From assembly GCA_002189035.1 (NCBI GenBank), contig NEEC01000020.1:1736001-1800000 (forward strand): a DNA stretch of 64,000 nucleotides. Reading direction: 5' to 3'. Position 1 is the stretch's first letter. Each line of letters opens with the position of its first letter. The DNA is from Utricularia gibba (taxonomy: Eukaryota; Streptophyta; Magnoliopsida; Lamiales; Lentibulariaceae). Positions 32,140-59,820 of the stretch are shown here, piece by piece. The notes beneath the pieces were generated by a model. That model had not been told where the DNA came from. It worked only from the letters and a program-made list of their open reading frames with translations, and did no database searches. The position numbers and the translations under genes are program-made.

Positions 32140-35100
32140 GACCTAGAATTATCTGAGGTTGCATGCATTGAGATTCCCAACATCGAAGGGCATTTGCATG
32201 ATGGGCATCGACCAACCAACCGCCCGGTCCTGTTATGTATCTTCCTGTCAGGACCCCTGCGCGAAAAAACCGAGAGTGATGATAGTAGAAAAGGAACCCT
32301 GAGAACCCCCTAGACAAGCAATGGAACCGGTTGTGTACAAGTCAGTGCAACTAGTACCAGAAGATGCGCAGAAAGCCACCCGCATTGGTGCCAATCTGGA
32401 CACCAGATTTGAGAAGAGGTTAGTTGAACTTTGGATGAAGAACGCCGATATTTTTGCCTGGACTGCTGCAGACTTTTTAGGCATTGATCGATCCGTTGCC
32501 GAGCATCACATTGATACCTACCCGGGGGCAAAACCGGTTCGGCAGAAGCAACGGCATTTCTCAGAGGAAAATGCCGAATTATCAAAGAAAAAACAAGGGA
32601 GCTCCTGGAAGTTGGTTATGTGAAGGAGATCCAGTACTCCGAGTGGGTAGCCATCCCAGTCGTCGTCTCGAAGCCCGGGGGAAAATGGAGGATGTGCATT
32701 GACTTCATCGACCTCAACGCCTGCTGCGAAAGGGACCCTTATCCTTTGCCAAAGATTGACAAGCCAGTGGATGCCATTGCCGGATCCCGATTCCTGAGCA
32801 TCATGGATGCCTATTCGGAATACCATCAAATTTTCGTTGCCGAGAGAGACCAACCGAAAACCACCTTCTACACCAAGGATGGAGTTTACTGCTACGTGGC
32901 CATGCCTTTCGGTTTAACGAATGTTGGGGCGACTTATCAGAGGTTGGTAAATAAAATATTCTCTTCTGAAATCGGTACCTCGATGGAGGTGTATGTGGAC
33001 GATATGATCGTAAAATCTATGAATGAAGAAGACCACTTGGCGTATTTGGATTCTTGTTTCTCTCTATGCCGGTCATATGGGTTAAAACTCATCCCACTGA
33101 AATGTTGTTTTGGGGTGCAAAGTGGAAAATTCCTGGGGCATTACGTATCGGAGAGAGGAATCGAGGCTAACCCCGAGAAGATTAAGGCAATATGCGAAAT
33201 GCAACCCCAAGGACAATCAAGGAGTACCAGAGCCTCACGGGTAAATTGGCTGCCCTCAGCCGTTTCATATCTCGGTCAGCCGATAAGTCGGCATCCTTCT
33301 TCAAGGCCTTGCGAAAGGGAAACGCTTTGGAATGGAACGAGGATTGCCGGATTGCCTTTGAAAAACTCAAGGAATATCTCTCATCACCCCCGCTTCTTGT
33401 GGCTCCGAAAGCAAGAGAGCTCTTAGGACTATATCTGTCTATATCGCCCGTTGCAGTCAGCACAGTCTTGACAACCATCTCGGCAGATAAGCACTTGCCG
33501 GTGTATTATGTGAGCAAGGTTCTGTTACCGGCCGAAACCCGGTATACGGTGACAGAAAAAGTCATCTTGGCTCTGAATATGGCAGCCAAAAAACTGAGGT
33601 CATATTTCCAATATCGGCACATCATTGTATTCACCAATCAGCCTCTGAAGAATATCCTATCTCGACCAGAGATTTCGGAAGGGTTGTCAAATGGGCGGTC
33701 GAATTGAGTACAATGGATATTGAGTTTAAATCGAGAACAGCAATCAAGGCCCAACCTCTTGCCGATTTTGTGGTCGAAATGACAAGGTCTATAGACCGTT
33801 TTGTGGAAGTCAATGATCGATGGGCCATGCACGTTGATGGCTCGACATACAACGGTGCTGGAGGAGGAATAGACATCCGAACCCAGGACGGGGAACACAT
33901 TTATATCACGGTGAAATTCTTATTCCCAGCCTCCAACAATGTGGCCGAATATGAAGCCTTGATTAAAGGAATGAAAATTGCCAAGGAACTAGGAGTTGCG
34001 GAGCTCGACGTCTACACCGATTCACGACTTATGCAAGGACAGTTTTCGGGTGAATACGAAACCCATAACTCTCTCATGGCTCTGTACCATATTCAGGTAA
34101 AGGAACTGGCAAAGACCTTCAAGGAATTCACCCTGTCGCACGTGGCACGCGAGAAAAACTGATCCGCAGATAGCCTCGCCCGATTTTCTGCAGGGTTTCA
34201 TGAGCTGAGGGAAGGAAGTGTGACGATTCGGTTGCGGGATCAACCTTCAGTGACCTTGCGAGCCATGAATTATATTACCCAGCAACCAGGAAATGATATC
34301 TCTCCACAGCTGAGTCATCTCGATGATTGGACATCACTCTACGTCCGGTATCTACGAAATGGAGAAACACCATCTGATAAATCCAAAGCCCGACATTTAG
34401 AGATTAAAGCAAAGAGATATACACTGGTAAATGGAATTCTCTATCGCAGATCCTTAGATGGACCCCTCTTGAGGTGTATCGGGGCAAAGCATTCTCAAGA
34501 ACTTATAACTGATATGCATGAAGGGGAATGAGGCAGCCACGTCGGGATATGATCTTTATGCAGGAAAGCCTTGAGAACCGGGTATTATTGGCCAACTATG
34601 GAGCGGGACATTACCGAAATGGTGAAGAAATGCAAAGTATGCCAATACCATGCAAGTACACCGAGAAAGCCGGTAAATAACCTGACCTCTCTTCCATTCT
34701 TATGCCCGTTCAATCGATGGGGAGTGGATATTATGGGGACGTTCCCCCAAACCTCGGGCCAAAGGAAATTTTTCATCGTGGGAGTCGAGTATTTCTCCAA
34801 ATGGGTGGAGGCTGAAGCCGTGGCAAAAATATAAGAGGAGACCGTTATTCGATTTCTATGGAGAAATATCTTCATCCGGTTCGGGATCCCTCAAGAACTA
34901 GTGACCGATAATGGAAGCCAATTCGTTGGAGGAAGAATGGAGGCATTCCTGGATAAATATACGGTCAAGCACAACTTCACCTCGGTGTATCACCCGCAGA
35001 GCAATGGTCTCACAGAGGTAACGAATTGAACGCTCAGGCTATGTATGAAGACTAAGCTTGAAGATTTTGGAGGGTCATGGGCAGATCGCTTGGATGAAGT

Positions 35101-35560
35101 GATGTGGTCATATCGCACCACCGCTCGGACCACCACGGAAGAATCCCCATTCTTATTGGTTTATGGTTCAGAAGCCGTATGCCCTATCGAACTAACCCTG
35201 AAAAGCTACCGGGTGGAACATTATAATGAAGAAGAAAATGCTGACCTGCGAAAACTGAAGTTGGAGCTGTTGGAAGAAAAACGGCAAAGTGTCTATAGCC
35301 GACTAGGGGCTCATCAGAGAAGAACGGACAAGAGATATATCAAGTCGGTATCCCCAAGGGAATTCTCCGAGGGAGATTTGGCCGAGTCGCGTAAGCCCAG
35401 GCAGACCCTCAAAGATCTAAATCACAAGCTCTGTCCAAGTAACGTAAGCCCAAGCGAATCTCCCAAATCGGCATCCCCTGCGGGATACAGCAAATCAACT
35501 CGGGGTCTCCCCCGATATATATGTGATCCCCCAAACCCAGGCATAAGTCGGTGACAAGAA
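32140..35560 (+). pseudogene. Tat-lineage Ty3/gypsy pol, 5'-truncated and broken
   Basis: This is a pol polyprotein of the Tat/Ogre lineage. The order is: an RT N-terminal region (32321 on, ADIFAWTAADFLGID); RT with VYVDDMIVKS (about 32990) and MDAYSEYHQIF; a first RNase H (33460-33690); a second archaeal-type RNase H starting WAMHVDGSTYNGAGG (33820), the lineage hallmark; integrase with CKVCQYH (34637), RWGVDIMGTFP (34716), TDNGSQF and NGLTEVTN; and a C-terminal region to 35554. I count three frameshifts (near 32585, 33190, 33695) and five in-frame stops (34160, 34529, about 34547, 34832, 35027). Gag, protease, 5' LTR and primer site are absent. GC is clearly higher than the flanks. It reads toward the convergent antisense gene at 36074-37973. 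Confidence 0.93.
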
Positions 35561-36073: not shown

Positions 36074-37973
36074 CTAAAGTGCAGGAGGAGATGGAGGATT
36101 AACGGGAGGATTGGCAGAGGAACCGGTATGTCGCTCCATCCTAGCTCTCAACATGGCGTCATTCTCTCGCCCTATCCTTGCCCGAATCAGCGCCATCAGC
36201 TGCTCCCGATCAGCTTCAAACCCGAGTTCCGGGGCTTGGAACGTATCCGCGATAACGTCTAGCATGTTCTCATCCTTCGTCAGGGGATTTATCCTATCGA
36301 AGCGCGGATCCATGATTGAAAGCCCGAACTCTCGGCTGAACTGTCGCCTCTGGCGGTATAGAAGAAGGCCGATTAAGTCTCCGGCATAAATATCCAATAA
36401 TTCGGAAAAGCAGGCCGAGTTCACGAAATCTTCACAAAGCCTTCTGTGAGATGCCTCCATATTGAGCAGCTCCGCCTCCAGGGCCGAAATGCGATCCATG
36501 GATTGTTTCAACTCTACCTCCGCTTCCTCGAGTTGCACTTTGAAACTCTCTTTCTCAAAGTTGGCATCATCAATTGCCTTTCCCATTTCACCAACCAAGG
36601 TCTGCAACTCCTCTTCTCGGTGGGTACGCTTCCCGAGTATGCTTCTCAATGCGCTCCCTTCTTCCCCCAACGACTTTATCTTGGCATCCTGAGCCATGAT
36701 TTGAGCTTGAAGCCGAGAGACTTCCTCAGAATGGGATCCCATTTCCTTGGCCATCCCCCATCTGAAGGTCAAAGCCTATGGTAAAATCGGCAAGCGAGGA
36801 ATCAAATATATTTGCTTACCCAAAAAAAAAAAAAGAGAAAGAAAGAAGAAGAAGAAAGAAGAAGAATAGAAGAAGGGAAGGAAGAGAGTACACCTGCCAA
36901 ATCCCTTTGAGTATAACTTCTGGTTGAATTCCCGAAAGGTTGGGGGTAGCCTCTTCTAAGGCTTTTCGCAGCTCCAAGGGGAAGGAAGAGGGGGGGAGAG
37001 CAGGATCCTCCCTTATCTGAATCGGAGGGGTGGAAATTCCCCCTATGTCACTTGGAGGGACCGAGGTTGAAGCTCCGGCCGAAATCTGCCCAATGCCGGG
37101 AGCCGGGAGCCTTTCTTTTCCTTTTCCCGACGGAGGAGGAGTTGATTCCCGAGTCCCGGGAACCTCAACCACTTGACCCTCCGGGAGGTGACCGGCAGCA
37201 TCTGAGTGAGCTGAGGCTGAATCGGCCTGGGGGGAAAGTTAAAATGTTAGAGTCAAATACTCTTAGCAACGGGCCACCAGAAATAAGACAGACCTGTGCA
37301 GGGGAGGGCACCTCAGGTTCCTGCATCCTCTGCATCTCGGCGGAGAACCGCGCCATCACCAAATCTTCCAGGGAGCTTCTTCGAGCCATCTCTTCAGCTG
37401 CAAACGAAAGTAGGAAAAGCAATAAGGCATAGTGCCGATTCTAAGACTTGGGTAAGCTGAACCCAACTACCTCTTTGCCTCTTTGAGGGTTTGTGCGCAA
37501 GTACCTTAACCCTTTTCTTTTTCTTGGGAGCCCCGGTTTGAACAGGTGGGGGGGATTAGGGATGAAGCCGAAACAAGAGAAAAGGATGGAGAGAGGTTAA
37601 GAGGAAGGTTTCTCAAATCGGTGCCGTCGAAAGGAATGATATCGGGCCAATGGGGGTCTCGAGAACCACCAATAATACCTGATCTTTTCAGCGACGCACC
37701 CGAGAACATCAAGGCACAAGACTCGTACCCAACCGAGCCTCGACTAAGCCTCTCATAGAGAACTTCACGAGATTCGGAAGAAGACCGATACGCACCAAAG
37801 ATTTTGACCCTGAAAGGAGTTGGGGGATCGACTAGGAAGTTCCACCGAAAACCCAAAGGGGGAGCTACCCAAACAAAAGAAGACCACCAATCATGGTGGG
37901 TATCGGGGGCTTTAACAACAAAGTTGGAGTTATCTTCAAATCGGCAGCATTGAAAATGAGATCGGCCATCCAT
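36074..37973 (-). CDS. Intact four-exon antisense gene of Tat element
   Basis: Minus-strand gene with exons 37973-37511, 37397-37294, 37226-36894 and 36775-36074. Together they total 1602 bp, exactly 534 codons with the stop (533 aa). Every junction keeps frame (phases 1, 0, 0) and has GT-AG borders: GTTAAG/TTTGCAG, CAG|GTCTGT/CCCCCCAG, CAG|GTGTAC/ACCATAG. Introns are 113, 67 and 118 bp, the last with a long pyrimidine tract. Residues 1-154 include DTHHDWWSSFVWVAPPLGF, reminiscent of the gag-like domain found in extra ORFs of plant gypsy elements. Residues 190-300 are Pro/Ser-rich. About 317-414 is a strong heptad coiled coil. The C-terminus is acidic to Pro-rich. No membrane segment is seen. 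Antisense ORFs between pol and 3' LTR are known in Tat elements (Grande gene 23 type), but their function is not established. This one is unbroken although the adjacent pol is dead. The start could lie further upstream, since the frame stays open to about 38100. Confidence 0.75.
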
Positions 37974-38454
37974 CGGGGACTTAGAAGCCCCAAACCCTAG
38001 AACGAGGCGAAAGTCAGAAAGGGTAAACGACTTAGAAAGGCGGTAAGTACCCGTCCAAAATTCTTGAAGACCTAAAGGGGAGTTAAGAAATCGTAGAGAT
38101 GCAAAAAGTCACGGAGAAGGAGCGGATACCTGGGAAATCTGTAATCTCCAGTGGATAACATGGCGGCAAGCACGGCGGAGTTCAGAGAGCGCTGGAATCT
38201 CGTGAGCGAACGAAGAAAGCAAAGGGGAGAAATGACAATGGGTGCGGATATTTATAATGGAAGGAGTCGGGAGACGAAGCGACGTGAGATTTGAGGTGCC
38301 CAAAAATGAGCGGGAAAAAATGTGGCGTGTTTATGAGCCGACGCGTGGCAGAGGTATCGGTACAAGGCGGTTTGTGGCTCATGCGAACAAGGCGGCACCT
38401 CAGAAGTCGGCATTGTGGTGATTCTGATTCCCCGACTTACCCCGGAAGGGCCAA
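37974..38454 (-). promoter_or_regulatory. Upstream region and TATA-like box of antisense gene
   Basis: On the minus strand the sequence ATTATAAATA (38258-38249) is a good plant TATA box about 275 bp before the assigned ATG, which would place transcription start near 38220. Between them the coding frame is open for about 100 bp (FWTGTYRLSKSFTLSDFRL precedes the ATG in frame), following a pyrimidine-rich CCCCTTTAG that looks like a splice acceptor (38072). An additional 5' exon is therefore possible. No upstream ATG I tested joins in frame. Confidence 0.5.
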
Positions 38455-38585
38455 TGTTGGCAAATCAGAGGGGCTAAATGATAGGGGATAAATCGATCAA
38501 GGGTAACCGGTTCCTAAAAGGCTGCCAAAAGAGACCTTGAGGGGATAATGCCAGTCGATAGACCGATATTTGTAAGAAATCTGAG
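38455..38585 (+). mobile_element. Truncated 3' LTR start of Tat element
   Basis: TGTTGGCAAATCAGAGGG at 38455, preceded by a purine-rich GGAAGGGCCAA, is a plausible 3' LTR start for the Tat element. It is cut off near 38585, where Athila LTR sequence begins. No second copy exists in the window, so the call rests on position and the TG end only. Confidence 0.4.
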
Positions 38586-39361
38586 TTTCTTTTCGTTTCT
38601 GTTTTCCATGGCCCTTTCGGGCTAAAACCTTTAGTTTCTGGGAAGTAGATGAAGTTTTCTTCCAAGTCCTGAGCAATACACTCGGTTCTTCACTGAATTC
38701 CATTTGGATTCCGCATAATTCCACGCGTCTTGTTACAGTCTTTCTGTAACGACTCTTAGTCAAGGTCCATGGGTAGCAGGCCACTTCTCGCGGATTTTGG
38801 TGAAGATCAAGGTGAAGAGCACCAACTCCAACCCTGCTGGTTCGAGGGAAGTAGCAGATTGTTTGTGGCCTAGGTACCACGACAGTGGATAGGTTGTGAC
38901 CTCGGACCTACCACTGGCCATTGGCAACAGCTGGCGCACAATTCGGTTTTAAAGGCAATCGAAGGCAATCCTCTTGTCTTCCTAATCGTCCAAGGGGGAA
39001 TCACATGAGGCTATTCCCGTGCCTCCTTGTCAATCAGAGTGTAAGGGAGAGTAGCTATTCCTTGCTCCTATAACCAGCTATTCGGAAGAAATCAGTGAAA
39101 ATCAAGGCAAGGATGGACAAAGGAAGGAGATGGAGTCTTATTCCCAGGAACTGTGTCTTGTAGTCAAGGCCCATTACTTAGGTTGTATCTTTCATTTATG
39201 CATCTTAAAAACCCCCTTTTACAAAACCGTGACATTTTGTAGAAGTTGCTTGCAAACACTTTTCACGAAAAACAACTCCCTGAGATCGATACTCGTACTA
39301 CGCTTTCTAGTGTTTTACGTTTTAAAATATTTAAAATTTGTTGAGGAAATGACACGCAATA
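38586..39361 (+). mobile_element. Athila 5' LTR, 5'-truncated
   Basis: This aligns without gaps to 47893-48670 of the 3' LTR over about 770 bp, with roughly 34 differences by eye (about 4-5%), mostly transitions. It ends ACACGCAATA against ACACGCAACA in the 3' copy. The first about 520 bp of the LTR, present in the 3' copy, are missing at the junction with the Tat element. Confidence 0.9.
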
Positions 39362-39367
39362 AATTTT

Positions 39368-39385
39368 TGGCGCCGTTTCCGAGGA
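39368..39385 (+). promoter_or_regulatory. Primer-binding site, tRNA-Asp type
   Basis: TGGCGCCGTTTCCGAGGA starts 6 bp after the 5' LTR. It resembles the complement of the plant tRNA-Asp 3' end used by Athila and Tat elements, with two apparent mismatches. Confidence 0.8.
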
Positions 39386-39498
39386 GTTGTATATTTTTGT
39401 GTTTAGTGTTGTGTATAGTTTTTCTTTTTCTTTTCTTTTTCTTTCTTTCTTCTTGTTTTTCTTTTATTTTCGTTTTGCTGCTGTTTTTCTATGTTTTT

Positions 39499-41728
39499 AT
39501 GCATTCAGCTCCACCAAAAGGACACCGAAGCTTAAGATCATACCGAGACATCTTGTGCCCTTTAGATCCGGAGATTGAGCGCACATTTCTGGCGAAAAAG
39601 AGGGAACTAACTTCAAATCTACCTCCTGACGAAGAAATGGATGCTCAACCACCTACTGGAGTCCCCACAATGCATGGAGAACAGGAGCAACAGCATCCGC
39701 AATTTTTTCCAGTTCTACCGATCACTAATCATGGCCCAGCACTAAGGACCATAAAAGAAGAAATCACTGGCAGCCATGCTGACCGACCACTTTGTATCAT
39801 CTTTGACGCGGAAGAGGACATTGAGCTTCGACCATATTTGTTCTAGACACTTCCTAAGTTCGTTGGGAGAGAAAATGACGACCCAAATCGTCATCTTAGA
39901 GAGTTGCACACGGCTTGTGCATCCATGCGCCCAAAAGGTGCTACGAAGAACCAAGTCAAGTTGTGGGTCTTCCCTTTCAGTCTCACTGAGCGAGCCCTGG
40001 GGTGGCTGTATGCACTACCTCCGTCCTCTATTGCAACCTGGTAGCAAATGGTTCAAAAGTTTCTTGATAGATATGCGCCCCTAGGAAGAGCCTCTGCGAG
40101 AAGAAGAGCTTTAGCCACCATGCTACAAAGTGAACGAGAGAATTTACAGGAGTATTATGACAGATTCAACCGGATCTGTAATACTTATCCACAACATGGG
40201 CTTACTGAAGGTCAAATTTTACAACATTTCTATGAACAGAGGACAAATGGATGCCGCTTGTAATGGGTCATTACTAGAGAACCGCCACAGTGCTGATGCC
40301 CGAAGATTGATAGAACAAATGGCTGCCAACTCTTATTCTACTTCCAGCCGTTATGACTACTCATACCGAGCCCCTGGAGGAGATTCTCAGCCTGTAAAAT
40401 CAGTGCACGAAGTGGATAATTCTGAAGTTTTAGCTCAACTTACTGCTATGAGTGATACCTTGAAGCTTGGCTTCCAATCACTTCTCCAACAACAAGGAAG
40501 GTATCAAGGATCTTCAACCTCTCATTATTTTGATCCAAGACCTATGATACATGAGGTGCCAACAGAAGAGGTGAATGCACTGCCATCCCAACCAGTGAAG
40601 AACCCAGAGCACATCAACGCTATATCTTTAAGAAGTGGGAAGGATCTATCGGAACCTTACCCATGGTTCATAACTAAGGTGGACAGATCTGACGAAAAAG
40701 AACTTGAAGTCTTGGACGACGATGATGATGTGGATGAGGAGATTATTTTAGAGCATCCTGATGATTCTCCAGCTCAGAACATTCCTATACCAACGCCTCC
40801 TAAAGAAGTAAAGGAGAAGGAGCCACAAGAAGTTGATCAACCCAAGTCTCTAGTCATTCCACCTCCTTTTCCTATGAGACTTCGAAGGAAGAGCAAGGAC
40901 AAACGTGGACTGAAAGCATTCATGGAGGTGATGAAGAAGGTGAAAGTGAATATTCCCTTGCTGGACATGATAGATCAAGTGCCGAAATATGCGAAAATGT
41001 TGAAGGATTTATGTGACCCCAAGAAGAAGGAAAAAGTGGAAGAGGTAATTCCCTTGACTGAAAATATTTCAGCAATTATTCAGAGAAGGCTTTCAAGAAA
41101 GTGTAAGGATCCAGGTATGTTTTCCATACCTGTTACTATTGATGAGACCAAAATTTCAATGGCCATGTGTGATTTAGGAGCATCGGTTAATGTTATGCCT
41201 AGATCCCTCTATCTTTCTCTTGCATCTAAGCTAGGTAAACTTGAACCTACTAGTGTTGTTTGTCAATTAGCTGATAGATCACATGTGAAGCCTGATGGTA
41301 GAGTTGATGATGTGTTTGTGCATGTTGAAAATTTGATTTTTACTGTTGATTTTTTAGTTATTCCAATGGAGAGCAAAAATCCCATGATTTCGAAGTCCAT
41401 CATTTTGGGACGACCGTTTATGGCTACTGCAAGCACCAAAATTGATGTCCAAGCCGGCACAATTTCTCTACAGTTTGATGGACAGGTGCTGGACTTTAGC
41501 CTGGACAAAGCCATGCAATATCCGGACCAGATTAACAAGATTTGCTCAATATCTACATCTGACGTAGATGTAGAACACTTAGCGATGGTCCATGAGCAAG
41601 ATCCCTTGCTCAAATGTCTTACTGAAAACTTTGATTCTGATCGTATTTCCTTTTCTGATTCCGAACTTTTAAATTATCTTGATTATTTTCCTGAAAAACC
41701 TGAATTTTCTGAGTTTAGAAATGCTTGA
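39499..41728 (+). pseudogene. Athila gag and protease
   Basis: Gag begins at ATG 39499 (MHSAPPKGHRSLRSYRD), behind a pyrimidine-rich leader (39410-39475). The capsid region contains two in-frame stops (39844 and about 40042) within otherwise open sequence (KFVGRENDDPNRHLRELHTA, ALGWLYALPPSSIATW, SERENLQEYYDRFNRICNTY). It shifts frame near 40230-40260 into a 532-codon frame that ends at 41728. That frame carries the gag C-terminus, an acidic linker (DDDDDVDEEII) and an aspartic protease core CDLGASVNVMPRSLY (about 41168), with ILGRPFMAT downstream. The gag would assemble particles and the protease would cut the polyprotein. Lesions are few, which fits a relatively young element. Confidence 0.92.
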
Positions 41729-44640
41729 GAAACTGCTGATTCCCTCCGTTATTCATGCCCCATTACTAGAGTTAAAAACACTGCCTAAACATTTGAAATA
41801 TTTATTTCTGGGCGAAAATGAGACTTCACCTGTTATTATCTCTAGTACACTAACCCTGGAATAGGAGGAAAAACTCAGGAGTGTGCTCCAGGAGCACAAA
41901 CAGGCAATTGGGTGGACATTGGCGGATATCAAAGGAATAAGCCCCTCCATATGCACTCACCGCATCTATTTGGAGGAGGGAACAAAGCCAATTCGCCAAC
42001 CCGAGAGGAGATTGAATCCACCTATGATTGAAGTGGTCAAGAAGGAGATTCTGAAGTTATTGGCTGCTGGTATAATCTATCCTATTTCTGATAGTGAGTG
42101 GGTTAGCCTGTGCAGGTTGTCCCGAAGAAAACAGGTATCACAGTCATGGCCAATGACCAAGTGGAACTCCTGCCTACAAGAGTGCAAAATGGCTGGCGAA
42201 TGTGCATAGATTACCGAAAATTGAACGCAGCCACCAAGGACCACTACCCACTTCCATTCATCGACCAAATGTTGGAAAGACTTGCTGGAAGGAGCCATTA
42301 TTGCTGCTTGGATGGATACTCCAGTTTCCATCAAATACCCATGGCTCTTGAGGATCAATCTAAGGTTGTTTTCGTTTGCCCCTTTGGTACTTTTGCTTAC
42401 CATAAAATGCCTTTTGGACTTTGCAATGCACCAGCAACATTTCATAGATGCATGGTTAGTATTTTTTCTGAATATGTTGAAAATATTATAGAGGTTTTTA
42501 TGGATGACTTTACGGTTTATGGAAATAGCTTTGATGAATGTCTTGCTAATTTTTCTTTGATTCTGAAACGTTGTGTAGAGACTAACCTTGTTTTGAATTA
42601 TGAGAAATGCCATTTCATAGTAGAACAAGGTATCATTTTAGGACATGTTTCCCAAAAAGGAATTGAGGTTGACAAGGCCAAAATTGAGGTAATCCAAAAA
42701 TTACCTTATCCTACTTGTGTGAGAGATGTACGTTCTTTCCTTGGACATGTTGGATTTTATCATAGGTTTATTCAAGATTTTTCGAAAATTGCATCTCCTC
42801 TATGTGCCTTATTGCATAAAGATGTTGAGTTTCATTTTGATGAAAAATGCATGCACACCTTTGATGTTTTGAAAGAGAAGCTTGTTTCCGCTCCCATTAT
42901 TCAGGCTCCCATTTGAACTAATGTGTGATGCAAGTGATGTAGCTCTAGGTGTGGTTTTGGGACAAAAGGTGGATAAACAATCCCATGTTATCCACTATGC
43001 GTCCAAGTGTCTTGATGATGCCAAAAAGAGCTACACCACTACAGAGAAGGAGCTGCTGGCCATTGTGTTTGCCTTGGAAAAATTTCGATCTTATTTGCTA
43101 GGAGCCAAAGTCATAGTCTATTCAGACCATGCCGCCTTGAGATATCTCCTCACCAAGAAGGATTCGAAGCCTAGACTCATAAGATGGATCTTATTGCTTC
43201 AAGAATTTGATTTGGAGATCAGGGACAAGAAAGGATGCGAGAATTTAGTTGTAGACCATCTCAGCCTCATCACTTCTGGAGAAAAATCAAGTCTTATCGA
43301 TGACAGTTTCCCGGACGAACACTTATTCATGATCCATGACGAGAGTCCCTGGTACGCTGACATCGTTAACTTTTTAGTGACTGGACAGTTCTTTGCAGAT
43401 TTCCAGCACTACCAGAAGGAGAAATTGAGGAGTGATAGCCTGAATTTCATCTGGGATGATCCATACCTCTGGAAAATCGGAACTGATCAGATTATTAGGA
43501 GATGCATCCCCCAAGATGAAGTGCACTCTATTCTTTCACATTGCCATGAGCTACCTTGCGGTGGATATTTTGGTGCAAAAGTTACTGCAAAGAAGGTTCT
43601 GGAGGCTGGATTTTATTGGCCTACCATATTCAAGGATGCCTACCTTCATTGCAAGGCGTGCCCAAATTGTCAAAGAGGAGGAAATTTGGGATACAAGGAT
43701 CAAATGCCCCTTCAACCCATTATCATGTGTGAGATCTTTGATGCATGGGACATTGACATCATGGGACCATTTCCGCCTTCTCAAGGGAAGCTCTACATAC
43801 TTCTTGCTGTTGATTATGTTTCTAAATGGGTGGAGGCCATTGCTTGTGAAAGGGATGATGCCAAAACCGTGGGTAATTTCTTGACTAATATTTTGTTCCC
43901 TAGGTTTGGACATCCCAAGATCATTATTTCAGATCGTGGCACCCATTTCGTGAATCATGCCATCAAGAGTGCATTGGCCAAATATGGAGTCAACCACCGC
44001 CTATCCACAGCTAGGCATCCGCAAACAAATGGCATGGCGGAAATATCAAATAGAGAGGTGAAAAGGATCTTGGAGCGTACCGTGAACCCAAATAGGCGAG
44101 ATTGGAGCTCAAGGCTCAATGATGCACTATAGGCATACCGTACAGCTTACAAGAATCCTATAGGAATGTCTCCAACAGAATGATCTATGGTAAGGCATGT
44201 CATCTACCTTTTGAATTGCATCACAAGGCATACTGGGCCATCAAGTCATGCAACCTGACTAGTGATCAAGCTGGGGAGAACAGACTTTTAGACCTAAAAG
44301 GGCTGGATGAAATTCGCCTCAATGCCTACACTAACCAGCTCCTGCACAAGGAAAAGGTAAAACGCTACCATGACAGTAAGTTACATGGGAAGCAATTTTT
44401 TGTAGGTCAAAAAGTTCTCTTATTTAATACTACCTTGAAACTCTTTCCCGGTAAATTGCGTTGTAAGTTGCTTGGATCTTATGAAGTTGTGAATGTTTTT
44501 CCCTCTGGTGCTGTTATTATTCGCTCATTTGAGACAGGGAAAAGCATTAAGGTGAATGGACACCGATTGAAGCCATTTTATGAGAAGTTTAAGCCGCACA
44601 GTGTGTGCAGCTTACTGCTAGTCGAGGGCCATTAACAGAT
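41729..44640 (+). pseudogene. Athila pol: RT, RNase H, integrase
   Basis: RT begins in frame fragments (41679-42209), with an indel-disrupted patch near 42110-42190, then runs openly to 42916 with WRMCIDYRKLNAATKDHYPL, CLDGYSSFHQIP and the active site VFMDDFTVYG (42499). A frameshift near 42910 leads to RNase H ([34 protein letters not shown]) and integrase: [47 protein letters not shown] stop at 44130 and a frameshift near 44178 separate the C-terminal part, which ends GHRLKPFYEKFKPH near 44610. A single Ty3-type RNase H without the second archaeal-type domain, and FMDDF instead of YVDDM, fit Athila rather than Tat. Confidence 0.92.
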
Positions 44641-44925
44641 GTCACAGTCGGCCAATGACTGTAAATTGGCGCTGCATGGGAGGCAACCCATGACTTTAAT
44701 TTCGTAACCGTTACTAGTTCCTCGTTTTTATCACCCACTACTCCAAGTGACTTTACTTTCACCTGCCCCACGCCACCACTTACTCCCTTAACCGTTTCTA
44801 CACTCAATCTCCCTTTTTCTCTTTTGGCATTCCCATTTTTACTGACCGTTACCCCACTTCGCTGTTGTGCCTATGCTCCAATTCTTCCTTCTCTCGCCTG
44901 AAATTCTCTGATTTTCCAACCCACA
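44641..44925 (+). other. Spacer between pol and env-like ORF
   Basis: This is C/T-rich non-coding sequence, consistent with the leader of a spliced message for the downstream ORF. Confidence 0.5.
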
Positions 44926-46575
44926 ATGTCTGGACGCCCCACATCTCCGGTTACCCGAAGCGCAAGTGCTGCTAAGGCAGCAACTCGAAAGCGTCAACCT
45001 GCTGCTGCTGGACCATCCAGAAGAACCCAGCGTCGCCACACCAACAACCCAGCAGATGCTTCTATTCCCACTGCTCATGATCCATCTCTAGGCGCTGCGA
45101 CGGAGTCTGTTCCGATTGAAGCCACGCCTTTTACCATTGTGTCTCCGGTGCTGTACCTGGAGTGGTACCCAGTCCCTGCTGCCGCTACTGTTGCTGCCGA
45201 CGCACCTGAGTCCTCAGAACCAAATTCCCCAGCAGCAATTTCTGCTCCCGAGAGCCCGCAGCCCATACAACCGGAAGAACTTGCTGGAGAAAAAGGTACG
45301 GAAAAAGAAATTCCTCATCCCCTTCTCCAGCACAGGACGAAGATTCCCCTGAAGAATTCAACATCCACGAAGAGGTCGATCTCTGGATTTTTGAAATAGA
45401 GCGTGCTGCTAATGAAGGGCCATGCCTAGAGTTCCTTCCCGGAAAACAGGATGTAGATGAAGCAACTCAGCCCACACAGCGAGGTAAAGGACAGCGCGAT
45501 CGCACAAAATTCTAGCGAGACCGAGCATTGGAGTCCCCTTCTTGGACTCAGCTGAAAAACACTGTGAAATTTTTAGATAAGAATGCTCAACTTCTATTTA
45601 ATCTCTTTACCTCACGCAGAATTTTGTTTGATTTTAAGTTGCATACGCCTACTTTGGTGCATCTGAATCTACTTGCTGATATTAATCGCTTATTTGATGC
45701 TTCTCCTGAGTGGCGAAAATTTTTCTGAAATTAGTCTCCCAGTTTATCCCAAACTTGTTTTTGAATTTTACACTACTTTTGTGTTTGAGGATGTGGCTGG
45801 AAATCCCCTTGCTGAAAATTTGATTTCTTTCCGCCTTGAAGGCAAAAATTTTCGTATGTCTATCAATGATTTTAATGTGGCTTTAGGCTTTGTTTCTGAA
45901 TCTGATTTAGCCACTACTCGTTACCTCCAAGCCTTCTGCGATTATCCTGAACATTTTAATGTGCTGAATGCATATGCTTCAATGTCTGTCTGTGAGCCCC
46001 CATATTCTGTACGCAAACTCAAGGCCCATTACTTGAGGGCACCTGCTCTTTTAGTTCTTAACAGGTATTTGGGAGGCTGTTACAGCGCAACCCGACAAGG
46101 CACTAGCACCATTGCCAAGGTTATTGTGTTCTTTCTGTGGGCAATGATGAAGAAGCTCCCCATTAATTTAGGATGGTGGATTGCAACTCAAATGCACTCC
46201 ATCACCGCTAAAAATGAAAGAGTGCTCCCATTTGCTTCTCTCATCACCAAGCTCACCCAACACCTGAAAGTGAACCTGGAAAAACAGACCCTTAAGGTAG
46301 ATAATCATCTCCATTATCTAGATTTAGATGACCTGTTTTCTTGCAGCTACCTGTTTTCAAGCGGGTACCAAAAGTACCATTACTTCTATGCCTCCTTCCA
46401 TTGTGAATCCATATGGTACGCCAATAGACATTCCTTTGAGCACTGCACCCACTAGCCCCACCAAGCACACCCTACTGCTAGCTATTCAGAGTCTCTAGGC
46501 GCAAGTTTCTGCGCTTTCCACGAAGCTGAACACTCTTATGGCTACTGCTTCACACTACCGCATGCCCCATGATTA
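44926..46575 (+). pseudogene. Athila third ORF, env-like position
   Basis: The ORF starts at ATG 44926 with a basic, Ser/Thr/Pro/Ala-rich N-terminus (MSGRPTSPVTRSASAAKAAT). It shifts frame near 45290-45390, continues through LDKNAQLLFNLFTSRRILFD (45570 on), shifts again near 45710, and then runs to 46455 with YPKLVFEFYTTFVFEDVAGN, FRMSINDFNVALGFVSESDL and WWIATQMHSI. A coiled-coil-like tail (QVSALSTKLNTLMATA) follows to about 46575 after another break. This matches the Athila ORF1-type protein family (DUF-like, no proven function) sitting where infectious elements keep env. I see no convincing signal peptide or C-terminal membrane anchor, so an envelope role is not supported by this copy. Confidence 0.85.
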
Positions 46576-47355
46576 AGGTACCCTCCGCTGCACTTGATGA
46601 TGAGGACATCCTCAAAATTAAGTGTGGGGGAGGAGTTTATGTTTCTTTTTATTTTCTAGTATTTTCTGGGCATTAGGACGTTTATGTGAAACTTTGTTGA
46701 ATTTTTTCTGTTTTCGTGCTTCATGTTTTTATTTTCCTTTTTGTTTTTGTTTGTGAAAAATCCCCACTATGCTCCTCAAGTACATTTGCTCCCACGAATA
46801 AGACTAGAATTTTTAGAATTGATCATGCTTAGGTTCATGAATTCCTTGCTGCTAGGAAAATACTCCAATTATTTTTCTTCCTAGATATCAAGCTTTTGTT
46901 GCATGTTTTAGGAAAGATTACACCGTGGCTATGATTACATTTTCAGTCCTTGTATATATTATGTTGTGAATAAATTTTTGCTGCTCCTATAGTGACCAAA
47001 TCGAGACCAAAAAAAATAGGGGTGCCAAAGGTAAGGATGTTTGGCGAAACCGTGGTTAACACCACACATGAGGTTTTGTAATCCAAATATTCTTCCCCAA
47101 AGCGGGGACCTCTATCAAAAAAGGAAAAAAAAAAGAAAGAAAGAAAATGGTCTTGAGTCACTATAGTGTATGTTCTTTGCTGTTTCTACCTTGATATTGT
47201 TAGTGTATAAGTAGTCATTGGTTAAAGGATAGGAAAAAGAATTGGAGTAAATACCTACTGTAGGAATGAGTGTACCTTAGTAATGCATCATGACTTAGGT
47301 TCTGCCCTTTTTCGTGGACTGCTATGATTTTCATACTTGAGGACAAGCATGATTT
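46576..47355 (+). other. Athila 3' untranslated region
   Basis: This is a long non-coding stretch containing a G-rich AAGTGTGGGGGAGGAG (46619) that looks like a second, internal polypurine tract, typical of Athila elements. A 72-codon reverse frame (46943-47161) is incidental. Confidence 0.6.
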
Positions 47356-47371
47356 AAGTATGGGGGGAATA
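47356..47371 (+). promoter_or_regulatory. Polypurine tract
   Basis: AAGTATGGGGGGAATA lies immediately before the TG of the 3' LTR, as expected for the plus-strand DNA primer. Confidence 0.85.
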
Positions 47372-48670
47372 TGTTAAGTGTCATTTTCTAGTTATTATTT
47401 AGGTATAATTATGTATTAATTAAGTACTAAGTCGCCCAATTAGGAGTCTTATTATTAAGTATTTGATTTTTACTAGAAAATTCCTATTTTCCCATTTTGT
47501 ATATATTTTATGCATTTTTTCTCACACTTTGACCGAGGCATGTCAAGAGACTGTCAGGAGTGTTGCAGGAGGATTGCAGGTGGTCACACTCTGAGTTTTC
47601 GTGCCTTGTACGCGAGTTGGAATGATTGTGGGCGGAAGACTGACACTGGTCAACGCCCATGACTTACGGCATGTCAGAGTCTGCAGCAATTATTGGGCGC
47701 AAACTTGCACGCAAAGAAAGTCTATTGGCGCACACAAGACAGAAAAAATGATGGGAAGGAGACCCAAAGGAGTTAATACACGTGGGAAGTCATATAAAAA
47801 CCACTTGGAGCACTTAGTTTCGGACTTTTGAACATTTTCCCTTGTACTTAGAACTTTTGAGTTCTTCCTCCCCTCAAGGAGGAAGAACACTTAGTTTCCT
47901 TTCGTTTCTGTTTTCCATGGCCCTTTCGGGCTAAAACCTTTAGTTTCTGGGAAGTAGATGAAGTTTCCTTCCAAGTGCTGAGCAATACACTCGGTTCTTC
48001 ACTGAATTCCATTCGGATTCCGCATACTTCCACGCGTCTTGTTATAGTCTTTCTGTAACGACTCTTAGTCAAGGTTCATGAGTAGTAGGCCACTTCTCAC
48101 GGATTTTGGTGAAGATCAAGGTGAAGAGCATCAACTCCAACACTGCTGGTTCGAGGGAAGTAGCAGATTGTTTGTGGCCTAGGTACCACGACAGTGGACA
48201 GGTTGTGACCTCGGACTTGCCACTAGTCATTGGCATCAGCTGGCGCACAATTCGGTTTTGAAGGCAATCGAAGGCAATTCTCTTGTCTTCCTAATCGTCC
48301 AAGGGGGAATCACATGAGCCTATTCCCATGCCTCCTTGTCAATCAGAGTATAAGGGAGAGTAGCTATTCCTTGCTCCTATAACCAGCTATTCGGAAGAAA
48401 TCAGTGAAAATCGAGGCAAGGACGGACAAAGGAAGGAGATGGAGTCTTATTCCCAGGAACTGTGTACCGTAGTCAAGGCCCATTACTTAGGTTGTATCTT
48501 TTATTTCTGCATCTTAAAAACCCCCTTTTACAAAACCGTGACATTTTGTAGAAGTTGCTTGCAAACACTTTTCACGAAAAACAACTCCCTGAGATCAATA
48601 CTTGTACTACGCTTTCTAGTGTTTTACGTTTTAAAATTTTTAAAATTTGTTGAGGAAACGACACGCAACA
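47372..48670 (+). mobile_element. Athila 3' LTR, complete
   Basis: This is a 1299 bp LTR from TGTTAAGTGTCATTTTCTAG to ACACGCAACA, so it has TG...CA ends. The first 500 bp are repeated at 63504-64000 and the last 770 bp at 38586-39361. CATATAAAAACC (47791) is a likely TATA box. The flank after the LTR is AGTAG. A target duplication cannot be tested because the 5' LTR is truncated. Confidence 0.93.
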
Positions 48671-50079
48671 AGTAGCTCCGTGGTTTTTCCGTTTTCCGGC
48701 GGTTTCCACGTAAAAATCTTCGCTCACTCTTATTTCAATTGAACCAACCGTGAAAACACGACTTAGTGTGGCATTCACGATCGCACCTATCACCTTAAAT
48801 CAGCCTTCAACCGGATACCGATTTTACCCATAACAACTTTAATCTAAAAAAATATAAAAGAAATGAAAACATTTATATTTTTAGTATTGGGATATTTTAG
48901 TCATTTATCCAACATATTTATTTTACATTCTCATTAACTAACAGAATATTATTATTACACATTTTACATTATATAAAAAACTCATTCTCATTTTTAATTT
49001 AATTAAAAAAAATGAGAAACACAAAGGGTGTTTCAATCTTAGGACTTCATGAAGAGCAAAACAGGAATTGAGAGGCCCGATTCAGATAAAGCCACCCAAT
49101 TTATCGAAACCAGAAGGGGATTTTTTTACTTGCATGGAACACATTAAGCAAACATGATGTATAACTAAACCTGACTCTAAACCCACGTAAAATACAATCC
49201 AAACTATCCCATTATGGTGCTCCATTATCCGAAACGAAACTTCTAAAAAACTGGTTGACATACAATATTCAAATAAAATCATATTTCTTTTCTATTTGAA
49301 ACCTTGGCACAAATCTAAATTACGATTCAATCAAAGAAATGTAATCAAGAATATAAAAGAAAAAGATACTTTTTGTTTTAAAACCATTTGGACAATGGAA
49401 TGCCACTTACCTTTTGATGCCTCCAAAATCACCCAAAACATTTATACCAACTTTTAAACAACTTGAAAAGAAAAACATATACAAAGACAAAGTAATTTGA
49501 TTTTTTTGGTTAAAAGACCTATTTAAAATTAATGTAATGCAAAAATAAATCATATTAGTAATATTAGAAGTAAAAAAAATTCTTAAAATGAGAAATAATA
49601 CAAATAATAAATCTAAAACAATATTTTCAAAAATTTTTAGAATCTATTTCTAATTTTTCAAAATAACTTTAGTAAAATAGAAATAATTGTAAGTATTCTA
49701 AAAAAACTATATTAATTAAAAAGTAAAAATAAAATGAAAAAATAATCCATTGCTTATGTTTTCAAAAAGTAATTTTCATAGTATAATTTTAAAACTACTT
49801 TTAATAGAATTATTTTAACAAATGATAGTATTTTACAATAAAACTATTTCTTTAAAAAAAAGTAAAAATAAACTTCAAAAATATTATTAAATAACCAAAA
49901 CAATTAATTAAATAATAAAGTTTTTTTATCAAATTAAAATATCATATTAATATTAATGTTTAATATTTCATTATTATATATTACGTATTCAGGTAATACT
50001 GCATCCATTCTGAAAAATGATTAGTTATATCAAAGTATATTGTCTCCTACTTAAACTAATGGATCTAAAGGGATTACCT
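48671..50079. other. AT-rich intergenic, no gene
   Basis: No supported gene. 49600-49880 has alternating AAAAGTAA / TTTTACTT phrases shared loosely with 15660-15890. A 66-codon minus frame (49082-49282) is unassigned. Confidence 0.3.
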
Positions 50080-57849: not shown

Positions 57850-58290
57850 AAAAATACAAAACACATAATAGAATACAAAATATTCATACTCAAAAATACT
57901 ATACATATAATATCAATTCTTATAATAAAACTAACAATAAAATAAAAAATATTCATATTAAAATATACTACACATATAACATCAATTCTCATAATAAAAC
58001 TAACAATAGAATACAAAATATTCATATTAAAAAATACTATACCTTAACATCACTTTTTATAATAAAACTAACAATAGAATACAAAATATTCATATTAAAA
58101 AATACTATACATTAACATCAATTCTTATAATAAAACTAACAATAGAATACAAAATATTCATATTCAAAAATATTACACATATAACATCCATTCTTATAAT
58201 AAAACTAACAATAGAATATAAAATATTTATATTCAAAATACTACACATATAACATTAATTCTTATAATAAAACAATAGAAATAAAAAATA
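57850..58290. repeat. 68-69 bp minisatellite in MULE intron
   Basis: About six head-to-tail copies of a unit containing AACTAACAATAGAATACAAA and ATATTCATATTAAAAAATAC. The CTAAC anchor recurs at 57931, 58000, 58068, 58136 and 58205, so the period alternates between 68 and 69 bp. Copies are about 90% alike by eye. The array sits between the two halves of the SWIM finger. Confidence 0.9.
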
Positions 58291-59820
58291 TACATATATA
58301 TATATATGTAATTTTCCATGCTCTACAATCACATAAATGTGTGGTCAACCAAATGGTGTATTTTTTTGTTCCCTCTGACCACCGATAATTACTTCGATCA
58401 CAAACGTCCACATGCCCCTTTCTTCCATCTTCCAATGCTTGTCTTATAATATTCTCTATTCTTGGACATAAATCTCCATGCCATCTTTATAATGCTTAAA
58501 AAACCAATCGCAAACCTTGTCATTAATCCATTCCAAAAGCTTGATTAGCTCCAGCCTCCTAGTATCCTTGAGAGTCGAATTAAGAGACTCTGAGTTGTTG
58601 TTCGTCAAAATGGCACACTTGTTACCTACATCAAAAAATGTTTGACAACATTGGAATGGTGGGATACGATCCATATACTCGTATGCATTCCTTAAGCGCA
58701 TCCATGGCACACCTAAACTGACTAGGCGTTGTAGCTCAAGCGGCAGATCACACATGGCACTTCAAAATGATTGTCAACTTCACTGAAATACTCTTATTAA
58801 GATTCTTGACCAAATGCAAGACACAATGACGGATCTATAAAGTACAATAGCCAAGTGTCAAATAAACATCGTTATTTTACAATTTATAACATATATGACT
58901 CAATGCATTATCTTTTGGGATGTAAGTATCTCAAAACGAATAATATTGTAGAAGCTCTATCTGCAACTATGGTAAATGATTCTTGCATCTCCTCCGAAAT
59001 ACCATAGTTTTCGCCAATCAATTTCATGAACCAAATCCAAGCCATCAAAGTTTCACCATCAACAACACCCCATGCAAGGGGGAAAACTCCATTGTTCGGA
59101 TCTAAGGCCGTTGCCACTAGCACTTTTCTGTTCAATTTACTCAATGTATGCGTGTCATCAACTCCGATCACATTATGGCCACACATACAGAATCCTACTT
59201 TACAAGCCTATAATTAGCATATAAACCTATAATTAGCATATAAATCATGAAATACTAAAAAAAATGAACCAAATATTATCACATAATCCAATAAACCAAA
59301 TATAACTAAATGCTAATTTATCATTATATAATAAATAAGGTACACTTCTAACATACAATGTTCAATAATAAACCAATCAAAAATATATAGGAAAAAAACA
59401 AAATATTGAAAATAATTCCATAAATATGTAACAAAAATGCTTCAAAAATACATACCTTTGAACAAAAATAAACTCCTTCGCATATTTTGTGTTTTCCATC
59501 TTCACCACCATCTACGTCTAAAATTGCCACAATAGCACCTTCATTCGATATCCGATATTGTTCACAATAACTTCGTAGCCACTCGAAATCATTCTTCATA
59601 ATTCCCACCATCATCTTCTGTGCATTCTCTTTCGCTCTCCTCACAATAATCACGCTTTATATCCGTAAGTAGATTCGCAACCTTGGTCAACGGATGATCA
59701 ATGAGCCTATCCATATACATCTTCCCAAGTCAACGTGCATTCACCTATTTGTTGTTCACATGTGGCCAGCAATGGTCTCCATGTGGAGTGACTTCATGAA
59801 CACTCCAAGTCGTTATCGGT

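Follow-up and report, generated by a model that had tools for sequence, protein, structure and literature searches.

The window analysed here, a stretch of 64,000 nucleotides of the Utricularia gibba genome (contig NEEC01000020.1, positions 1,736,001 to 1,800,000), carries on its forward strand the broken pol gene of a Tat retrotransposon (32173..35381) and, downstream of pol and in antisense orientation to it, a gene on the minus strand (36074-38256). The Pfam domain order of pol is RVT_1, RT_RNaseH, RVT_3, i.e. reverse transcriptase, RNase H and a second RNase H of the RVT_3 type, with no integrase family being found by Pfam in the two downstream pol pieces scanned. A comparison with the 20 best-scoring pol copies revealed three one-base deletions in the window pol relative to at least 80% of these copies and six in-frame stops, four of them present in 0 of the 20 copies and two in one of the 20 each. 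A sequence-only reading of this DNA had described pol as broken by roughly eight lesions; the decay stands, while the count rises to nine. Most pol matches in the genome begin at window base 32173, and the window's Tat element is therefore probably cut or interrupted upstream. About 240-330 nt present in the copies viewed are absent from the window between the end of pol (35379-35381) and the antisense gene's 3' end. The Tat element carries a nested Athila-like element (38574-48671) whose two LTRs (38574-39362 and 47883-48671) share 95.2% identity; compared to the copies viewed, the window lacks about 200-270 nt of Tat sequence between the flanks of this insertion. A comparison of the window with itself reveals matches offset by about 68-70 nt at 57858-58297, a pattern resembling that of a short tandem array.

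The sequence-only reading had assembled the antisense gene on the minus strand from four blocks (37973-37511, 37397-37294, 37226-36894 and 36775-36074; 463 + 104 + 333 + 702, i.e. 1602 nt) separated by three GT...AG gaps of 113, 67 and 118 nt. This join is exact, resulting, under this splice model, in a frame of 534 codons including a single terminal stop and thus in 533 residues. A DNA search of 100 Mb of the same genome (40 of 142 candidates scored) revealed many copies of the element. We compared 40 copy regions, 39 from this search and one (L052) from a profile search with PF04195, all turned to the strand of the antisense gene and then aligned. The gene model obtained in this way starts with a TATA-like site at 38249..38256, which reads TATAAATA in the window; 32 of the 36 copies covering the site likewise have TATAAATA or TATTAATA. 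The remainder of exon 1 in the family frame (37471..37982), ending in a basic stretch, is defined by the 40-copy alignment and is followed by intron 1 with the family donor (37398..37470), by exon 2 (37294..37397; window join and copy alignment) and by intron 2 (37227..37293; donor kept in 37 and acceptor in 35 of 40 copies). Exon 3 (36894..37226), a Pro/Ser-rich linker, is supported by the window join, by the copies and by dN/dS, intron 3 (36776..36893) by a donor kept in 37 of 37 and an acceptor kept in 35 of 38 covering copies, and exon 4 (36074..36775), a predicted coiled coil with C-terminal helices, ends in the stop codon at 36074-36076. Introns 2 and 3 as well as the acceptor of intron 1 as originally proposed are therefore kept across the family.

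The first donor has to be moved. The family donor, AAAGAG/GTAGT at 37470 (GT in 37/40 copies, with the acceptor AG likewise in 37/40), lies 40 nt beyond the donor at 37510 assumed before, and the assignment follows frame logic. In L021 and L028, the two copies in which exon 1 is open throughout, the donor at 37470 joins exons 1 and 2 in frame, giving spliced frames of 395 and 313 codons, whereas the donor at 37510 results in a stop after codon 288 in both. The GT at 37510 is kept in 39 of 40 copies, being part of a codon there, and part of the previously assumed intron 1 encodes a lysine/arginine-rich peptide in the family frame; this basic stretch, scored as at least eight K/R per 20 residues, is present in 35/40 copies, a few of them having an internal stop. 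Spliced with the family donor, the window sequence has a frameshift ahead of the end of exon 1 and, owing to it, runs into a stop after 155 codons. Read against the family frame, it is the donor at 37510 that masks the break of exon 1 in the window.

The second defect of the window copy is a deletion at 37982..37983, where 344-371 nt carried by all 38 covering copies are gone (L048 and L049 have no alignment at this site). The family ATG is located near the start of this missing segment, at the same place in 35 of the 38 covering copies, and the ATG at 37973, regarded before as the start, is an internal methionine codon of the family gene. The missing segment encodes the Pfam domain PF04195 (Transposase_28, TRP28). 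In the profile search (150 of 211 candidates scored) PF04195 was above cut-off in 12 of the 40 regions and gave no match in the window itself; the 367-residue ORF of L028 reached an E-value of 3.8e-4 and 21.1 bits, which is under the curated cut-off of 26.2 bits. The frame had been described as open without lesion, a view that does not survive the exon 1 frameshift and the loss of the start codon together with the TRP28 domain. With the segment absent and no TRP28 match in the window, the window copy is, by these comparisons, a degraded relative and not a complete member of the Retand TRP28 antisense genes.

For the remaining parts, domain searches gave little. With Pfam, the three window exon ORFs scanned yielded sub-threshold matches of coiled-coil type for exon 4 and none for the other two, and a search of a large protein collection with the 533 residues returned no match at E <= 0.001 (8000 candidates scored), plant proteins possibly being scarce in this collection. 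A single-sequence structure model of exon 4 consists mostly of one helix (residues 2-117 of 232; pTM 0.39), which fits a predicted coiled coil. The profile search and structure prediction suggested earlier yielded a long modelled helix in exon 4, but no above-threshold Pfam match in the three exon ORFs.

Selection was assessed at the level of the family and for the window copy separately. The dN/dS and private-change analyses of the exons used 38 of the 40 copies (L048 and L052 left out) and that of the missing segment 38 copies (L048 and L049 left out); exon 2 is below the length threshold of the dN/dS script, and the values cover exons 1, 3, 4 and the missing segment. Mean dN/mean dS in subfamilies A, B and C is 0.29, 0.30 and 0.16 for exon 1, 0.30, 0.47 and 0.52 for exon 3, and 0.13, 0.34 and 0.22 for exon 4, compared to 0.73 to 1.85 for these exons in the two shifted frames. 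The missing segment shows 0.08-0.18 within subfamilies versus 1.2-2.3 in the other two frames, being constrained at least as strongly as any other part of the gene. Overall, in-frame values of 0.08-0.52 stand against 0.73-2.30 in shifted frames, a contrast between frames that is uniform though the pairs are not independent. Judged by this contrast, the family gene is a real coding sequence under purifying selection. The family-level splice sites and dN/dS bear out the original recognition of a spliced antisense gene of a Tat element.

The window's own branch presents a different picture from the family. Its 39 private changes comprise 29 amino-acid-changing ones versus 26.9 expected if the same base changes are placed at random, and they are distributed over the codon positions as 13, 15 and 11; an excess of silent changes was not found among these 39. 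None of the 39 is a stop gain, for which P = 0.42 if the 38 other copies set the rate (93/4172), and the comparison of the window gene (0/39) with the window pol (4/65) gives a Fisher P of 0.29. The changes of the window copy look neutral and thus give no hint that, after insertion, it came under selection or was co-opted by the host. The sequence-only reading had proposed a selected, parasite-borne factor and a check of dN/dS across copies: at the family level the frame-specific, purifying values of 0.08-0.52 agree with such selection, but the window branch, with its neutral private changes, lacks this sign.

The same data bear on the possibility, also raised before, that the host has co-opted the truncated copy, i.e. 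a coiled-coil protein devoid of TRP28, as a gene of its own. Such a co-option would be in line with the 534-codon frame being open with the donor at 37510, with the retained TATA-like site, and with the window being the only one among 41 sequences in which exons 2-4 are all open with intact splice sites, an observation that counts against regarding the copy as neutral wreckage. Against it, the private changes are neutral both by class and by codon position, and the open frame depends on the donor at 37510, which in the family does not give an in-frame join, the window frame being broken with the donor that the family does use. Moreover, exon 2 is open in 19/40, exon 3 in 18/40 and exon 4 in 4/40 of the other copies, so that, given independent failure of the exons, 40 copies should include about one (0.9) in which exons 2-4 are all open; the window, besides, had been chosen for its open frame. 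We consider co-option highly improbable.

We also rejected the idea that the frame has stayed open against the odds. Two lesions in about 2.03 kb of original coding sequence compared to nine in 3.21 kb of pol correspond to a binomial P of 0.14, and one lesion in the retained 1.6 kb of the gene to P = 0.10; the zero lesions in 1.6 kb assumed earlier would give P = 0.03. Neither the lesion counts (P = 0.14) nor the stop gains (P = 0.42) support an exceptional preservation. The window copy looks, on these comparisons, like ordinary neutral-looking retrotransposon wreckage, and nothing in them suggests that it functions in its own right.

An open frame could alternatively result from exchange of the segment into the element at a time more recent than the decay of pol, and the gene has in fact a composite structure. 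In an 80-nt profile of identity to 21 copies, the median identity to subfamily B (11 copies), 89% ahead of intron 2, drops to 50% where this intron starts and has recovered to 80-90% by 36410-36251, and subfamily C (5 copies) shows 47-75% from 38010 to 37291 and 78-89% from 37291 to the middle of exon 4, intron 3 excepted. Judged by this profile, the antisense gene is a mosaic (36400-37290), with exons 1-2 and the end of exon 4 resembling subfamily B and the part from intron 2 to the middle of exon 4 resembling subfamily C; the identity break marks intron 2 as the site at which subfamilies exchanged modules long ago. This composite structure is what favours a recent exchange, but subfamily A has the same arrangement, and the exchange is therefore older than the window copy. 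The identities to the nearest copy point in the same direction: exon 1 reaches 93.9%, as does intron 1 together with exon 2, the stretch running from intron 2 to intron 3 has 88.5%, and exon 4, taken in two parts, has 90.5% and 93.6%. The range of 88.5-93.9% does not exceed the 94% of pol, so that, against the copies compared, none of the gene's segments appears more recent than pol, contrary to what had been suggested. A recent exchange as the source of the open frame is accordingly very unlikely. In the copy with the nearest pol (L053, 94%), pol adjoins an antisense gene (L048) with an identity of only 62.7% in exon 1 and of 93.6% at the end of exon 4, which on these values is module mixing along one element.

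The family gene contains, in this order, a TATA-like site, a start codon with TRP28, a basic stretch ending exon 1, a linker rich in Pro and Ser, and a last exon with a predicted coiled coil. According to the model proposed here, active elements would transcribe the antisense gene from its own promoter and the protein would enter the nucleus, pair through its coiled coil and bind DNA via TRP28, thereby regulating transcription or integration of the element itself. The persistence of introns in a retroelement would be explained by their antisense orientation relative to the genomic RNA, copying via RNA thus sparing them. As another possibility, the antisense transcript could act as RNA, i.e. 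as double-stranded RNA for silencing, and not via a protein, a role raised as a possibility in the available part of PMC7264820. The frame-specific purifying selection on exons 1, 3 and 4 and on the missing segment points to a protein, making an RNA function as the sole role extremely unlikely; it might be an additional one. Returning to the protein model, we lean, by a modest degree, toward the TRP28 accessory gene of this family being a true four-exon gene with its own promoter, its introns kept as they are antisense and its modules, i.e. the TRP28-bearing exons 1-2 versus the linker and coiled-coil exons, exchanged through intron 2, so that surveys of uninterrupted ORFs miss the complete protein of roughly 670-680 codons. 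The data suggest that such surveys see mere fragments of genes of this kind.

As a summary, the window copy gives no reason to be pursued as a co-opted gene. The family data provide a model of splicing, a start codon, the order of the domains and a frame-specific signature of purifying selection, with which transcripts and full-length proteins can be sought. The four-exon structure and the old module exchange at intron 2 may be novel, the TRP28 antisense ORF itself being known: no description of a four-exon TRP28 gene was found in the literature searched, part of it available in excerpt, which is no proof of absence. The four-exon layout is, on the loci compared, documented within this family only. 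In four further TRP28 loci (L009-L012), inspected for this arrangement, the rule used found no basic stretch. L010 (1285-2076), belonging to a second TRP28 family, has an open stretch of 264 codons with a DWW.SFVWV motif after TRP28 as in exon 1 of the window, and L012 carries this motif after TRP28 as well.

It is very probable that the window copy is a decayed form of the antisense accessory gene carried by Retand-type Tat elements between pol and the 3' LTR. A reverse transcriptase, an RNase H and a second (archaeal-type) RNase H preceding the integrase constitute the Ogre/Retand layout within Tat, as stated in the available part of PMC6317226, and the grounds for assigning the element to the Retand type rather than to Ogre are TRP28, the antisense position of the gene and agreement with the published pattern. 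According to the accessible portion of PMC11963269 (Vicient 2025), TRP28 antisense ORFs are present in 97% of the recently active Retand clusters, their function being unknown and DNA binding being predicted. The earlier claim of an undescribed function therefore remains valid for the role of the gene, but not for the gene class, which that source already describes. The family gene resembles these Retand ORFs in being antisense, downstream of pol and, in the family copies, equipped with TRP28, for which a nuclear/DNA role is predicted. It differs in consisting of four exons, whereas the ORFs of PMC11963269 are uninterrupted, as obtained with ORF Finder, and the word intron does not appear in the available main text; the window copy differs from them further by its lack of TRP28. 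A likeness, by description only, exists to gene23 of maize Grande and to the antisense ORFs of RIRE2 and Silene Retand, which are accessory genes downstream of pol. The accessible part of PMC7264820, reviewing Retand-like antisense ORFs, calls for a search for antisense and spliced transcripts and reports for gene23 of maize Grande both a promoter of its own and a nuclear product.
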